A DNA stretch of 64,000 bases from Oscillospiraceae bacterium (GTDB taxonomy: Bacteria; Bacillota; Clostridia; Oscillospirales; Acutalibacteraceae), in assembly GCA_015066625.1 (NCBI GenBank), contig SVOC01000001.1:1-64000 (forward strand), written 5' to 3'. The translations under genes were made by a program, and so were the position numbers. Positions 269-34,591 of the stretch are shown in pieces; position 1 is the first letter of the stretch; the number at the start of each line of letters is the position of its first letter. Under the pieces are notes generated by a model, which was given only the letters and a program-made list of their open reading frames with translations, was not told the DNA's origin and searched no databases.

Positions 269-1297
269 TTGCGTGAAGAATTAAAAAATGCACACAAAGA
301 ACTTAGGGATAATTTAAAAACTGACGATATCACATCAACAATCCTTGTTGATTCATTCTTGCAAGGTAGCTATGCCAGAGCAACATGCATTAAGCCCCAA
401 AAAGGAGACAAGGTTGATGTTGATGTAATTGCAGTCACAAACATTAATCACAATTTAGTTTCTGCAGAAGATGCGTTTCAAAAAATATTACCTTTTGTTG
501 AAAAATATTATGAAGACTTTAGACCTCAGAAAAGGTCTGTTGGAATTTCGTTGGATAATGTTGATGTTGATTTGGTTATTACTGCAGCGCCTAGCGAAGA
601 AGTGATGAGAGAAATTACAAGTGCAAGATTGAATGAAGGATTTACAATAGATAACATTCTTGAGGTTGGTTCAATTAACTATAGAAACGATTCCTTGAGT
701 TGCTTCTTCAATTCTGATGAAAGCGAAAAAATGTGGAGAAAAGAGCCATTGTTAATACCTGATTCAGAGGAAAACAATTGGTTTAGAACACATCCGCTTG
801 AACAAATTAGATGGACTAAAGAAAAAAATCGACTTTGTAACGATAACTATGTAAATGTTGTTAAAGCTTTAAAATGGTGGAAAACAAAAGCGATGCCTGA
901 TGCTAAACACCCTAAAAGCTACCCTCTCGAACATTTTATAGGTGACTGTTGTCCAAATGGAATAGAAAGTGTTGCCGAAGGCATTGTGAAAACCTTAGAA
1001 AAAATGCTTTGTTATCCTTCAAAGCCGATTTTAAATGACCGAGGGGTGCCAGAACACGATGTTTTTGAAAGTCTTTCTACTGAAGACTACAATAAATTTT
1101 ATAACACAATAAAAAAATATGCAGTAATTGCACGAAGGGCATATGACTGTGAGGAATCAAATATCGAAGAGTGTGTTTGCTTGTGGAGGGAGTTTTTTGG
1201 TAATTGCCCTGAATTTCCGCCATTTAGAGGGCCGTCTGGAGGATTTACTCCTCGCACACAAAAAACTGAAACATTGCCATCAGGAAGGTTTGGATAA
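269..1297 (+). CDS. CBASS CD-NTase (cyclic oligonucleotide synthase), N-terminus lost
   Basis: CD-NTases sense phage infection and make cyclic di- or trinucleotide signals. The nucleotidyltransferase signature is present: GSY at residues 33-35, the metal-binding pair D50 and D52 in KVDVDVIAV, and a third acid in NVDVDLVIT (about residue 99-101). The only available start is TTG at 269, without a clear ribosome site. The frame stays open upstream to about base 230, reading ITNIKLPDELREEL, which resembles the family N-terminal helix, so only the first 10-20 residues appear missing. The protein ends in PSGRFG, and a C-terminal glycine is what Cap2 conjugates in type II CBASS. The next gene starts 2 bases after the stop. 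DNA here is visibly more AT-rich than the core genome. Family call is firm; activity is doubtful. Confidence 0.85.
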   Translation: MREELKNAHKELRDNLKTDDITSTILVDSFLQGSYARATCIKPQKGDKVDVDVIAVTNINHNLVSAEDAFQKILPFVEKYYEDFRPQKRSVGISLDNVDVDLVITAAPSEEVMREITSARLNEGFTIDNILEVGSINYRNDSLSCFFNSDESEKMWRKEPLLIPDSEENNWFRTHPLEQIRWTKEKNRLCNDNYVNVVKALKWWKTKAMPDAKHPKSYPLEHFIGDCCPNGIESVAEGIVKTLEKMLCYPSKPILNDRGVPEHDVFESLSTEDYNKFYNTIKKYAVIARRAYDCEESNIEECVCLWREFFGNCPEFPPFRGPSGGFTPRTQKTETLPSGRFG

Positions 1298-1299
1298 TT

Positions 1300-2745
1300 A
1301 TGATATACCCAAGCGATGATTTGCGTGCTGCTAGGAGACGACTTGAAGAAATCAAAGAAATTTCAATTTTAGATGATTTGACTTGGGATGACAAAACAAA
1401 AGTATTTTACATACGAATTTCAATTTATCTTGATAAAGAATATGACTTCATCCCGCAAAATACCGAGTGGTATATAACGGTTAAATCATCATACCCTTTT
1501 GGGGAAATTGCTTTTTATCCAAGCAAGATCAATGGTATTACCGATACATTTCCTCATCAGTCAAATAATTTTTCTGATAAGTATTATGATTTATGGCGGA
1601 CAGGAAAGCTGTGTTTGGATTACTATTCTAATTCTCTTGGAATTAATTCGTCCGAGACAGAACCGTCATCCGCTTTTGATAGATTATATTGGCATGCAAC
1701 CCGTGCTATCTCTTGGCTATATGATGCCGCTAATTGTTCACTTGTTAAAAACGGAGATCCTTATGAATTACCGTCGTATGAATCAACAAGCACCGATTTG
1801 TTTGTATTCAATGAAGATTTGTGCTCTTTGACAATATGGGAAGATATCCAATATAAATATGGTATCGCAAAAATTAATGTTAAGTGTTTATCAGATGAGC
1901 AAAAAGTTAATTATGTTACACGTTTTTTCTCTTTTGATGGTAAAGAAAACATATACTCTCCTTTTTGGAATGAGAATTTTAAAGGCGAAAACATTGATAC
2001 AGACGTTGAGGCTCTTTGGGTTATGATTGATAGTCCTCTTGTTGTAAACCATTGGCAGGCTCCAATGACTTATTCCGAATTGTTTGATGCTTGTAAAAGG
2101 CAAAATATAGATTTAATAAATCTTATTAAGAATTTTGCACGTAAGGCTAGAGATGCTAAAAATCATCTTGTTATTTTCGGCTTTCCTGCGCCTAAACAAT
2201 TCGGAGGCGAACCATATGAAATTGTTTGGCAAGCACTTGAACTTCCTATATTGTCATTTAAAAAACAGGATTTTAACAGTTGTGTTAAAGCCAAATCAAA
2301 AAATAATTTTCGTTCTTACCCCGGATTTCGTCCAGGAGAAAAAGGTTGGTGGCAAAACGATAGAATGAATATTCTAAAATCCGATAAACAATTGTGTTGG
2401 ATAGATAGTGAAAATTGGAGTTCTGACACCATCCAAGCAAGAGGCTCTTTGCCTAACTCAATTTCAGGAAAGAGAATTGCTGTTATAGGTGCAGGTAGTT
2501 TAGGGTCAACTATATCTGAAATTCTTGTTAGAGCAGGTGTTAGAAATATAACTTTTATTGATAACGAAATTTTAGAAGCTGGAAATCTATGCCGTCACAC
2601 TTTGTCGCTGTCAAACATCGGCCAAAACAAAAGTGAAGCTCTTGCTTCTAAACTATACAACATAAACACACAAAATACGGTTAAAGCAATCACTGAAAAA
2701 GTCAGATTAACTGAATCAAGCGTTGCCGCCGCCTGTGGCGGATGA
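1300..2745 (+). CDS. CBASS Cap2 E2-E1 ubiquitin-transfer-like protein, C-terminus truncated
   Basis: Cap2 activates and conjugates the CD-NTase C-terminus to prime it. The N-terminal half is E2-like, with the catalytic cysteine in TGKLCLDYY (C105) after FPHQSNNF. The C-terminal half begins an E1/ThiF adenylation domain: IAVIGAGSLGS (about residues 394-404), then TFIDNE and an Asn-Leu-Cys-Arg motif typical of the ATP site. The protein stops at 481 residues in VAAACGG, before the E1 catalytic cysteine and the rest of the domain; full Cap2 proteins are usually nearer 600. The stop lies inside a 47-base hairpin, so the last residues are foreign. No Cap3 (JAB peptidase) or effector gene follows. 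Probably an inactive remnant of a type II CBASS operon. Confidence 0.82.
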   Translation: MIYPSDDLRAARRRLEEIKEISILDDLTWDDKTKVFYIRISIYLDKEYDFIPQNTEWYITVKSSYPFGEIAFYPSKINGITDTFPHQSNNFSDKYYDLWRTGKLCLDYYSNSLGINSSETEPSSAFDRLYWHATRAISWLYDAANCSLVKNGDPYELPSYESTSTDLFVFNEDLCSLTIWEDIQYKYGIAKINVKCLSDEQKVNYVTRFFSFDGKENIYSPFWNENFKGENIDTDVEALWVMIDSPLVVNHWQAPMTYSELFDACKRQNIDLINLIKNFARKARDAKNHLVIFGFPAPKQFGGEPYEIVWQALELPILSFKKQDFNSCVKAKSKNNFRSYPGFRPGEKGWWQNDRMNILKSDKQLCWIDSENWSSDTIQARGSLPNSISGKRIAVIGAGSLGSTISEILVRAGVRNITFIDNEILEAGNLCRHTLSLSNIGQNKSEALASKLYNINTQNTVKAITEKVRLTESSVAAACGG

Positions 2746-2962: not shown

Positions 2963-3170
2963 TTGGGTCGTGTTTAAATTTTCTATATATTACCACATAT
3001 CCCTTTATATGTCAATAGGTTTTTGCGAAAAATGTGACGGAATATCACATTTAGAGTGCGAGTTACCTTCAAAGGGGATTTTTTGAACAGTTTACGGCAT
3101 CCCCCTGGTCAACAAACAATTTAAAAATGTGGTTGGCAGGGGTGATTCGCAAATTGCCCGCAAAAACCAC

Positions 3171-3199
3171 TTGCAATTTATAAAATTTTGAAGTATAAT
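3171..3199 (+). promoter_or_regulatory. Promoter of the leader-peptide/methyltransferase unit
   Basis: TTGCAA (3171-3176), a 17-base spacer and a perfect TATAAT (3194-3199). The predicted start is near 3206, about 24 bases before the leader peptide. Confidence 0.75.
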
Positions 3200-3229
3200 C
3201 GGTTCAAATCTTAATTGGAGGAAACGGGT

Positions 3230-3265
3230 ATGTTTTTTATCTCTGTTCGACGCAGACGAAGATAG
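3230..3265 (+). CDS. Arg-rich leader peptide (MFFISVRRRRR)
   Basis: An 11-codon reading frame starts at ATG 3230, 6 bases after a strong GGAGGAAA ribosome site, and ends at TAG 3263. It encodes MFFISVRRRRR. Downstream come hairpin AAGATA/TATCTT (3259-3275, overlapping the last codons), hairpin CAGGC/GCCTG (3285-3308) and a terminator (3340-3376), all before the methyltransferase start. This is the layout of a ribosome-stalling attenuator. Consecutive arginines form the R-x-R (+X+) motif at which macrolide-bound ribosomes are known to arrest, as in the ErmD-type leader. That the inducer is an antibiotic is inference. Confidence 0.65.
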   Translation: MFFISVRRRRR

Positions 3266-3339
3266 CTTGTATCTTATTCGGGTACAGGCTTTGAATGCTG
3301 TGTGCCTGACGGAGTGACAGAGGAAAATGCCTTTTGATT

Positions 3340-3376
3340 TACTGTTAACGGCGCATGGCTGTTAACAGTATTTTTT
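3340..3376 (+). terminator. Attenuator terminator before the methyltransferase
   Basis: TACTGTTAAC (3340-3349) pairs perfectly with GTTAACAGTA (3361-3370), followed by TTTTTT. It sits between leader peptide and structural gene, so readthrough must be conditional or partial. Confidence 0.8.
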
Positions 3377-3398
3377 ATATTTCGGAGGTTATTTAAAA

Positions 3399-4142
3399 AT
3401 GAACAGTAACAAATATTCATCATTAGTAAAAGAGATTTTTAAGCAGATAAACCTACCCCATAATGCGGTCGTTGCGGATTTGGGCTGTCGTGATGCTGGT
3501 TTTCTTTTGAAATTGCAGCAGGCGTTTCCCGATAAAATCAAATATGCCGTCGGTGTTGATATAAATGACAAGGGTTTTAAAAATATTAAATACAAAAAGC
3601 CTGTAAGGCTTGAAGTTATGAATTGCTCAAAGAAACTTGAATTTGACGATAATACATTTGATTTTGTGTTTACAAAAGATATGTTTGAGTGTGTGACGGA
3701 TAAGGATTTTCTTGTCAGTGAGATTCACAGGATTTTAAAGCCGGGCGGAGTGGTGATTTGCGTAAACTGCGATTGGGACAGCATTGCTTATAATGGCGAA
3801 GACAAGGAACTGATTTCAAAAGCAATCCACGCTTATGCAGTAACAAAGCAGCCTTGGATGGCTGACCTTGACAGTTGGATTGGCAGGAGGATGTATGGGA
3901 TTTTCAAGATGAGCAAGTTGTTTGAAAGTTCTGTCAGCATTCATAATGTGGTCGAAACCGAATATATAGAAGGTACCTTCGGCTATGAATTAAGCAGGGA
4001 TATTGCCTGGCTACATAAGGAAAACACGGGTGCATTGAGCAAAAAAGAGTATGGCAAGTTCATTTCGGAATTAGAAACGGCATATCGGAACGGAAGTTAT
4101 ATATTCTCCAAGCCTTACTATATATATAAAGGTATAAAATAA
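3399..4142 (+). CDS. Class I SAM-dependent methyltransferase behind an attenuator
   Basis: This 247-residue protein has the Rossmann methyltransferase pattern. Motif I is VVADLGCRDAGFLLKL (about residues 25-40), motif II is the acidic VGVDIN, and motif IV/post-I lies in FDFVFTKDMFEC followed by HRILKPGGVVICV (Methyltransf_11 type). The ATG at 3399 follows a GGAGG at 3383. The substrate cannot be read from sequence. The C-terminal half (PWMADLDSWIGRRMYG, then WLHKENTGALSKKEYG) is not one I can assign. The leader peptide and attenuator suggest translation-sensing induction, as for antibiotic-resistance rRNA methylases, but no Erm signature is seen. It stands alone between two terminators, consistent with a transferred cassette. 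Confidence 0.75.
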   Translation: MNSNKYSSLVKEIFKQINLPHNAVVADLGCRDAGFLLKLQQAFPDKIKYAVGVDINDKGFKNIKYKKPVRLEVMNCSKKLEFDDNTFDFVFTKDMFECVTDKDFLVSEIHRILKPGGVVICVNCDWDSIAYNGEDKELISKAIHAYAVTKQPWMADLDSWIGRRMYGIFKMSKLFESSVSIHNVVETEYIEGTFGYELSRDIAWLHKENTGALSKKEYGKFISELETAYRNGSYIFSKPYYIYKGIK

Positions 4143-14069: not shown

Positions 14070-14075
14070 CAAAGA

Positions 14076-14230
14076 GATAGAGGTGCAGAAGTCAAGAGTA
14101 ATTCTCACACACAGGGCACAGATGAGAATGAAAGGGGCTTTTGCCGAAGTGAATGCAGGCTTGCCCGAGGCGGCATTTGCTGGTACGTTATAAAACATAT
14201 AACGTACTGTCACGGTTGTGGAGCGCTATC
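14076..14230 (+). promoter_or_regulatory. Lysine riboswitch (L box)
   Basis: The aptamer core is recognisable in order: GATAGAGGTGCAGAAGTCAAGAGTA, GAAAGGGGC..GCCGAAG, GGCATTTGCTGG, a stem ending in ACTGTCACGG, and TGTGGAGCGCTATC closing the first helix with GATAG. Between aptamer and gene (14231-14311) a hairpin CGATAT..ATATCG precedes a T-rich stretch and may be the expression platform. It controls the NhaC-type transporter. Confidence 0.9.
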
Positions 14231-14311
14231 GGAAAATCTTTGATATTGCATTGATTTTTTGCTTCGATATGCAGCCGTGTATATCGGAGCTTAATTTTTG
14301 GAGGTTTTCAG

Positions 14312-34383: not shown

Positions 34384-34412
34384 TTGACAAGCACAGATAA
34401 TTGTGCTATCAT
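34384..34412 (+). promoter_or_regulatory. Promoter of rplJ-rplL
   Basis: TTGACA (34384-34389), 17 bases, TATCAT (34407-34412). Confidence 0.8.
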
Positions 34413-34430
34413 ATCTAAGCTGTTCTTTTT

Positions 34431-34555
34431 GAAGACAGCAGGTGCTTTTCGCATAAAGGTTATTTTAACCGCCTGCCGAGAGAGGAAGCATACAATTCAG
34501 ATTATACACTGTAAGTATGTTATGCCCTTTCTGCGGTTTGCGGAAAGGGCTTTTA
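34431..34555 (+). promoter_or_regulatory. L10 leader with attenuator
   Basis: GAAGACAGCAGGTGC..GCCTGCCGAGAG is the L10(L12)4-binding kink-turn element of Firmicutes. It is followed by the hairpin GCCCTTTC (34524-34531)/GAAAGGGC (34543-34550) and TTTTAATTTT, the attenuator. Excess L10 complex would favour termination before rplJ. Confidence 0.85.
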
Positions 34556-34591
34556 ATTTTGTATTTATTCCATATGGAGGTGAAAATACAC

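Follow-up and report, generated by a model that had tools for sequence, protein, structure and literature searches.

An arginine-codon leader attenuator before an accessory methyltransferase gene of gut Clostridia, a probable reader of charged tRNA-Arg

A short leader gene encoding the peptide MFFISVRRRRR and the RNA that follows it very likely form a ribosome-mediated transcription attenuator, which probably uses its arginine codons to gauge how much charged tRNA-Arg is available and controls an accessory methyltransferase gene. They are located in the window, meaning the whole stretch of 64,000 nucleotides of an Oscillospiraceae contig that was analysed. The signal is likely to be a shortage of charged tRNA-Arg, upon which the terminator would be read through; signal and read-through are both proposed from the sequence. 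An anonymous methyltransferase is thereby given a regulatory signal that is defined in sequence and testable, as the enzyme would be wanted when arginine codons are unreadable. In the open-access papers searched (best 15 of 26 and best 8 of 1,069 matches), no description of this element was found, and the leader RNA could join Rfam as a family.

All elements of the window discussed here are on the forward strand. A promoter-like pair of boxes (TTGCAA, 17 nt, TATAAT; 3171..3199) matches the consensus at 10 of 12 positions. Taken alone, this site is not clearly above chance, with six promoter-like sites in the scanned 2 kb and 4.2 (sd 2.1) in shuffled sequences. The Shine-Dalgarno sequence GGAGG (3217..3221), which is found as GGAGG or similar in the aligned loci, precedes the leader ORF (3230..3265), in which the arginine codons CGA CGC AGA CGA AGA are followed by TAG. 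The first codon of the run, CGA, accounts for 2.1% of 527 arginine codons, counted over the 25 window frames of at least 250 aa, unfiltered for real genes. An intrinsic terminator (3340..3376), consisting of a stem of 13 pairs (3340-3370) and a T run, is followed by the methyltransferase gene (3399..4142). The promoter-like site, the strong ribosome site, the 11-codon peptide, the terminator and the methyltransferase had all been pointed out in an earlier note on this DNA, and each is in place. The leader RNA of 188 nt folds better than all 200 of its shuffled versions (z -4.74). Rfam 15 gave no match up to E 10 at 3150-3420, and a T-box or riboswitch identity was dropped on that ground. Elsewhere in the window, Rfam matches a lysine riboswitch (14070-14236) and a ribosomal L10 leader (34411-34565), both of which are ordinary.

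The earlier note had described the region after the peptide as two mutually placed hairpins. The two-hairpin picture gives way to a chain of mutually exclusive segments, numbered 0 to 4, together with the 3' arm of the terminator. Segment 0 (3250..3258) is made of arginine-codon nucleotides and pairs with segment 3 in the predicted untranslated fold. Segment 1 (GCTTGTATC, 3265..3273) begins at the last base of the leader stop codon. Segment 2 (GGTACAGGC, 3281..3289) has segment 1 or 3 as partner, segment 3 (GCTGTGTGCC, 3297..3306) has segment 0, 2 or 4, and segment 4 (GGCGCATGGC, 3350..3359), located inside the terminator, is the antiterminator partner of segment 3.

Across 20 aligned sequences, 99.2% of the cells are paired in the antitermination state (1:2 with 3:4) and 98.6% in the termination state (2:3 with the terminator), and sliding the partner by 1-3 columns leaves at most 46% paired in either case. 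The 3:4 helix alone is paired in 98.5% of cells and the terminator helix in 97.5%, with changes on both sides in five of its 12 pairs. A mutually exclusive antiterminator and terminator are thus present and conserved. The terminating state contains six pairs changed on both sides and 16 double-change cells, which was reached by none of 500 shuffles, and the antiterminating state contains two pairs with changes on both sides, reached by 13 of 500; these counts are not probabilities, the aligned sequences being related. A second alignment combined 15 methyltransferase leaders with three leaders of argS, the gene for arginyl-tRNA synthetase (ArgRS), and two histidine-run leaders, both described below. 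Here, the 1:2 helix is paired in 180 of 180 cells, A-U to G-C exchanges included, and the 2:3 helix in all cells but one. The share of paired cells and the covariation score of 1:2 were matched by none of 500 shuffles, and its both-side changes and pair types, two of the five measures, by 82 and 68 of 500. In the argS and histidine leaders, the 3:4 helix and the terminator were read by eye and are uncounted.

The pairing of segment 0 with segment 3 is found in 95% of cells in the 20 sequences. Five of its eight pairs are invariant, which places this helix beyond proof by covariation, and one pair is broken in seven of the 20 sequences. This pairing may be the reason why the nucleotides of the arginine codons are near-fixed. 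A further stretch (3316..3324) is complementary to leader codons 2-4 and is paired in 87.8% of cells, compared with 56-63% when slid, with covariation about as in shuffles; this pairing is weakly supported, less well than 0:3.

With segment 1 free and the RNA ending at segment 4, folding gives 1:2 and 3:4 as the prevailing helices in all 20 sequences, and with segment 1 covered in the full RNA the terminator prevails in all 20. Two results speak against a purely thermodynamic switch: at equilibrium with segment 1 free, the terminator of the full-length RNA is still favoured in 11 of 20 sequences, including the window (0.98), and if segment 1 is covered in RNA that ends at segment 4, 17 of 20 sequences have 3:4 as the prevailing helix. 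Antitermination must therefore be kinetic, with the switch acting during RNA synthesis. The available text of a study on Bacillus subtilis places the leading edge of the ribosome at a distance of 15-16 nt, counted from the first P-site base (PMC6851288). By that distance, a ribosome at the first arginine codon covers segment 0 and ends short of segment 1, a ribosome at codon 8 touches only the first bases of segment 1, and all of segment 1 is covered once the ribosome has come to the stop codon.

Geometry and folding together predict expression only with a ribosome on the arginine run. Without translation, segment 0 would hold segment 3, 1:2 would form and the terminator would end transcription. 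With a ribosome at the stop codon, segment 1 would be covered and 2:3 and the terminator would form, so that the gene again stays off. A ribosome held up where the arginine run begins would mask segment 0 and leave segment 1 free, allowing 1:2 and 3:4 to form, upon which the terminator would fail and the gene would be read. The codon run would thus double as an RNA segment and create a three-state switch that is off both when the leader is untranslated and when it is fully translated.

Leader and gene are conserved together. A scan of genome contigs resulted in 20 relatives of the methyltransferase with 66-83% identity, titled Clostridia or Oscillospiraceae; where the titles give a host, this is goat, sheep, deer or cattle. 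A leader of the MFFISVRRRRR kind is present in 19 of the 19 homologous loci with upstream sequence, and the segments and the terminator recur too. The contig of the twentieth locus (L005) begins 82 bases before the gene, and this locus was left out of the count. The peptide and the terminator, for which the earlier note had suggested a comparison of homologues, are therefore both kept. Common leader forms are MFFIS[IV]RRRRR, MFFITIRRRRR or close variants; MTFFIRRRRR or MTLFIRRRRR is found in L018 and L019, and the deviating arginine runs are RRRQR (L008) and RRRRI (L016, L020). Three to five arginines are kept, mostly five, and the run ends at the stop codon or one codon earlier. The methyltransferases behind the compared leaders differ from that of the window by 17-43%.

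A covariance model, R1, built from 20 leaders (the 19 loci plus the window) gave matches in 18 of 300 genomes of the family, spread over 14 of 135 genera; these matches overlap with the loci of the 20 relatives and are not independent of them. In 17 of the 18 matches, including the window and one locus whose gene runs off the contig (L030), the leader precedes the methyltransferase family, and in the remaining one (L039) it precedes argS. A pattern search with segments 1-3 matched 18 of 300 genomes, compared with three for a reversed control pattern, and five of those 18 matches (L057-L060, L067) were judged to be chance from the matched strings alone. The methyltransferase itself is found at E 1e-20 or better in seven of 45 genomes in the genus of the window (its own included), in one of 16 in the rest of the family sample and in none of 38 in the order sample. 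Besides the window, the leader is present at all seven sampled methyltransferase loci of the genus and family samples.

The surroundings of the gene differ between loci. Within the available flanks, no other gene group recurs in more than five of 21 loci, the window counted. In most loci, the part that resembles the window at the nucleotide level extends from near the promoter or the Shine-Dalgarno sequence to the stop codon of the gene or close to it. Since the similarity is confined to leader and gene and the neighbours differ, leader and gene form a single accessory unit, which usually has a promoter to itself. At many of the homologous loci, promoter-like boxes were seen by eye, unscored, in front of the leader. 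At L006 and L009, the Shine-Dalgarno sequence of the leader directly follows the stop codon of the upstream gene, which leaves no room for a promoter, so the leader has none of its own there. By eye, this upstream gene is proC-like and is itself located behind proB- and proA-like genes. A kinase-like gene is found near the methyltransferase in five of 21 loci (L004, L011, L015, L017, L021; PRK10593 81 of 319 bits in L004), accompanied in four of these five by a second shared gene, on varying sides. Upstream in the window (269-2745) is a CBASS remnant, consisting of an oligonucleotide cyclase (PADLOC E 1.3e-117) and, behind it, an E1-E2 (Cap2) frame, whose best profile is matched only to position 459 of 607, with the C-terminal part seemingly missing. 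The end of this frame falls inside a dispersed repeat of about 160 bases (2700-2870), which has five matches in its own genome, itself included, and similar pieces in L010, L012, L014, L015 and L017. Carriage on phages or plasmids was rejected: the leader has no match in phages and plasmids, no relative of the methyltransferase was found in viral contigs, and the six plasmid records with matches to the enzyme reach only 22-31% identity. The single viral match to the leader pattern (L099) looks like chance in GC-rich DNA.

Related leaders stand before genes with a clearer tie to amino acids. Among 394 genomes of the order, R1 found, besides the window, two genomes of family f20 (G652 and G554), with the leaders MFNSLSIRRRR and MNHFISLSTRRRR before argS; a partial match (L042) covers only model positions 125-161. 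Among 391 genomes of the class, R1 found G992 and G1025, where the leader MKIYKLNGNKHHHKI or MKLYKLNGNKHHHKI precedes genes for a binding protein and a permease. The histidine-run leader MKIYKLNGNKHHHKI is located at 1498-1646 of L044 on the forward strand, and the matching stretch of L045, on the reverse strand, carries MKLYKLNGNKHHHKI. In both, segments 1:2 and 2:3 align with those of the arginine switch. Two weak matches (L043, L046) had no fitting leader ORF in the scan and were called chance. Outside the methyltransferase family, believable R1 matches thus come from one of 300, two of 394 and two of 391 genomes; these samples overlap, and the large ones were scored with stricter filters. 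A second model, R2, found the window only among 398 genomes of the phylum, two of 24 genomes in the genus of G652 and one of 35 in the family of G992.

The argS genes were compared in 18 genomes, namely 15 of the 17 with a methyltransferase leader and G209, G652 and G554. In G652 and G554, two argS genes each score over the cut-off, and the leader is located at the divergent second copy. The leader in G209 (L039), MLFVCTRHIH, contains one arginine and two histidines, and its argS is the only one over the cut-off in a genome that is 87% complete. The three leader-borne ArgRS (L089, whose leader has a single arginine, L090 and L091) share 49-56% identity with each other and 20-31% with the others compared. 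No leader of this kind was found at the 17 other argS loci, one of which (L079) has almost no upstream sequence. The methyltransferase profile A3 was not found in G209, G554, G992 and G1025, and G652 has two weak partial matches only (best E 3e-7). The binding protein behind the histidine leaders is below the cut-off of every NCBIfam model among the matches listed; the Lys/Arg/Orn subfamily scores best (167 of 256 bits) and HisJ reaches 98.5 of 459 bits. The target is an ABC transporter of the polar amino-acid type. Given an arginine run before argS and a histidine run before an amino-acid transporter, the leaders follow the logic of amino-acid attenuators.

The gene behind the arginine leader of the window encodes a stand-alone class I SAM-dependent methyltransferase of 247 aa (Methyltransf_11, E 1.2e-14). 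It matches seven Pfam families at E 0.001 or better, all of which are generic methyltransferase, UbiE or mRNA-cap-type domains; an RrnaAD-type (Erm) domain, which we take to be PF00398, is absent among them. None of the best 25 of the 26 NCBIfam models that match the enzyme reaches its cut-off, and no RlmA(II) model is among these 25. The model for the 23S rRNA G745 enzyme of the RlmA(I) type (NF008300) gives 19.2 bits against a cut-off of 303, and the RlmA chain 1p91 matches at an E value of only 7.4e-4. An Erm or RlmA identity was set aside as unsupported by the profiles. The earlier note had called the enzyme an orphan with no Erm signature, and both descriptions hold as far as Pfam and NCBIfam profiles and the comparison of neighbours go. 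Among solved structures, the best relatives are phosphoethanolamine methyltransferases, which match over the SAM domain, together with 3mgg (residues 7-234), which is named just Methyltransferase and is the only solved relative matched over nearly the full length. These relatives are not decisive for the substrate. The stretches CDWDS and TKQPWMDDLDSWIGRR are strongly conserved and located behind the SAM-binding part, a region that is often substrate-binding in methyltransferases of this type. With low confidence, a small molecule or tRNA is favoured as substrate. The defence model mad2 (E 1e-11) was rejected as an identity, its match being limited to residues 8-125 in the generic methyltransferase part.

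The main rival explanation, close to what the earlier note had proposed, is that a macrolide-like drug in the ribosomal tunnel arrests the ribosome at R-X-R, frees segment 1 and so induces a protective or drug-altering methyltransferase. R-X-R is present within the arginine run of the methyltransferase leaders read, in the window as RRR at codons 7-9, and a ribosome arrested at codon 8 would lie over segment 0 and spare most of segment 1. The explanation keeps some probability through a real resemblance: the tlrB leader of Bacillus, MIIQFIRYR, is of similar shape, with a hydrophobic start and arginines at positions 7 and 9, and arrest by tylosin is reported from toeprinting in the text available (PMC6851288). 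The sporadic, stand-alone occurrence of the methyltransferase gene also resembles that of resistance genes. On the other hand, three to five arginines are kept where R-X-R needs two, the enzyme lacks the Erm domain and is far below the RlmA model, and the same kind of leader precedes argS and a transporter gene. The resemblance of FFIS-V to the stalling core of ErmC-type leaders, an argument of the earlier note, fell away, as leaders with the same segments differ in what precedes the run (MTFFIRRRRR, MFSIIIRRRR, MFNSLSIRRRR) and codons 2-4 face the complementary stretch downstream. Altogether we regard drug arrest as rather unlikely. From the antibiotic-inducible layout that had been proposed, a ribosome-controlled attenuator is retained, and induction by a drug is weakened by the argS and histidine-run leaders. 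Given these same leaders, arginine is the better supported signal, which suggests that stress or a toxin is sensed, more than it suggests resistance of the classical macrolide type.

Ribosomes slowed at rare arginine codons by any agent, such as ribosome drugs, cold or stationary phase, could also operate the switch, since it answers to the position of the ribosome, whatever the cause, and the run does contain rare CGA codons. We consider such a general sensor of slow translation improbable, because the pairing of arginine with argS and of histidine with an amino-acid transporter points to specific amino acids. It is hardly credible that the leader was inherited with the cassette and has lost its regulation, with constant read-through of the gene: even when segment 1 is free, equilibrium folds do favour termination in roughly half of the sequences, but compensatory changes and near-fixed segments persist in front of enzymes as different as those compared.

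Returning to a shortage of charged tRNA-Arg as the signal, no tie to arginine is known for the methyltransferase, whereas the second argS and, loosely, the histidine-run transporter go with the amino acid of their leader. From the sequence context, the enzyme would plausibly protect against some condition or agent by which Arg-tRNA is depleted. More tentatively, and as a notion that we would not bet on, gut Clostridia might possess an inducible resistance with two branches to a natural agent that leaves ribosomes short of Arg-tRNA. The stall at arginine codons would be sensed by one type of switch RNA, which would turn on a divergent second ArgRS as a bypass, and in other lineages the same type of switch would turn on the methyltransferase, which might modify the agent or tRNA-Arg. 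Candidate agents would be an inhibitor of arginyl-tRNA synthetase, a toxic analogue of arginine or a tRNA-Arg-cleaving nuclease. If the arginine reading is right, it would suggest that arginine charging in the animal gut is under a pressure so far unrecognised, and that natural products or toxins are active there.

Several known systems share parts of this arrangement. Vecchione and Sello reportedly described in 2010 an auxiliary, inhibitor-resistant tryptophanyl-tRNA synthetase of Streptomyces under ribosome-mediated attenuation, which is a precedent for the leader-borne second argS, but with tryptophan instead of arginine and without a methyltransferase. Leader attenuators for amino acids are known in Firmicutes, including his attenuators (PMC9413887) and the hisZ/hisS leader (PMC2965389). 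As far as the available texts describe them, these also combine a short ORF, in which codons for a single amino acid stand in tandem, with a terminator/antiterminator, and also occur before aminoacyl-tRNA synthetase genes; the present element differs in the use of arginine, in the accessory methyltransferase as target and in the codon run as RNA segment (0:3), in a comparison at the level of layout and target. The tlrB (yxjB) gene of B. subtilis similarly encodes a methyltransferase behind a terminator and a short hydrophobic leader that ends in R-X-R. In the accessible part of that paper, its product is the 23S rRNA methyltransferase RlmA(II), and the drug-dependent stall at RYR with tylosin is accompanied by a need for NusG pausing and sequestration of the Shine-Dalgarno sequence (PMC6851288). 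In contrast to tlrB, the present type of leader also occurs before a second argS. The orf34 leader of Salmonella speF also senses arginine through consecutive arginine codons, by ribosome pausing and RNA refolding; as its partial text presents it, it works with Rho and RNase G and no intrinsic terminator, targets an ornithine decarboxylase gene and belongs to Gammaproteobacteria (PMC6386406). In the Gram-positive Staphylococcus aureus, the rbfL leader peptide senses arginine with rare arginine codons, but in the portion of the report at hand it occludes the next ribosome site and represses upon limitation, without a terminator switch (PMC13009471). The present element differs from these systems in its target, in the combination of an intrinsic terminator with arginine codons, and in segment 0.
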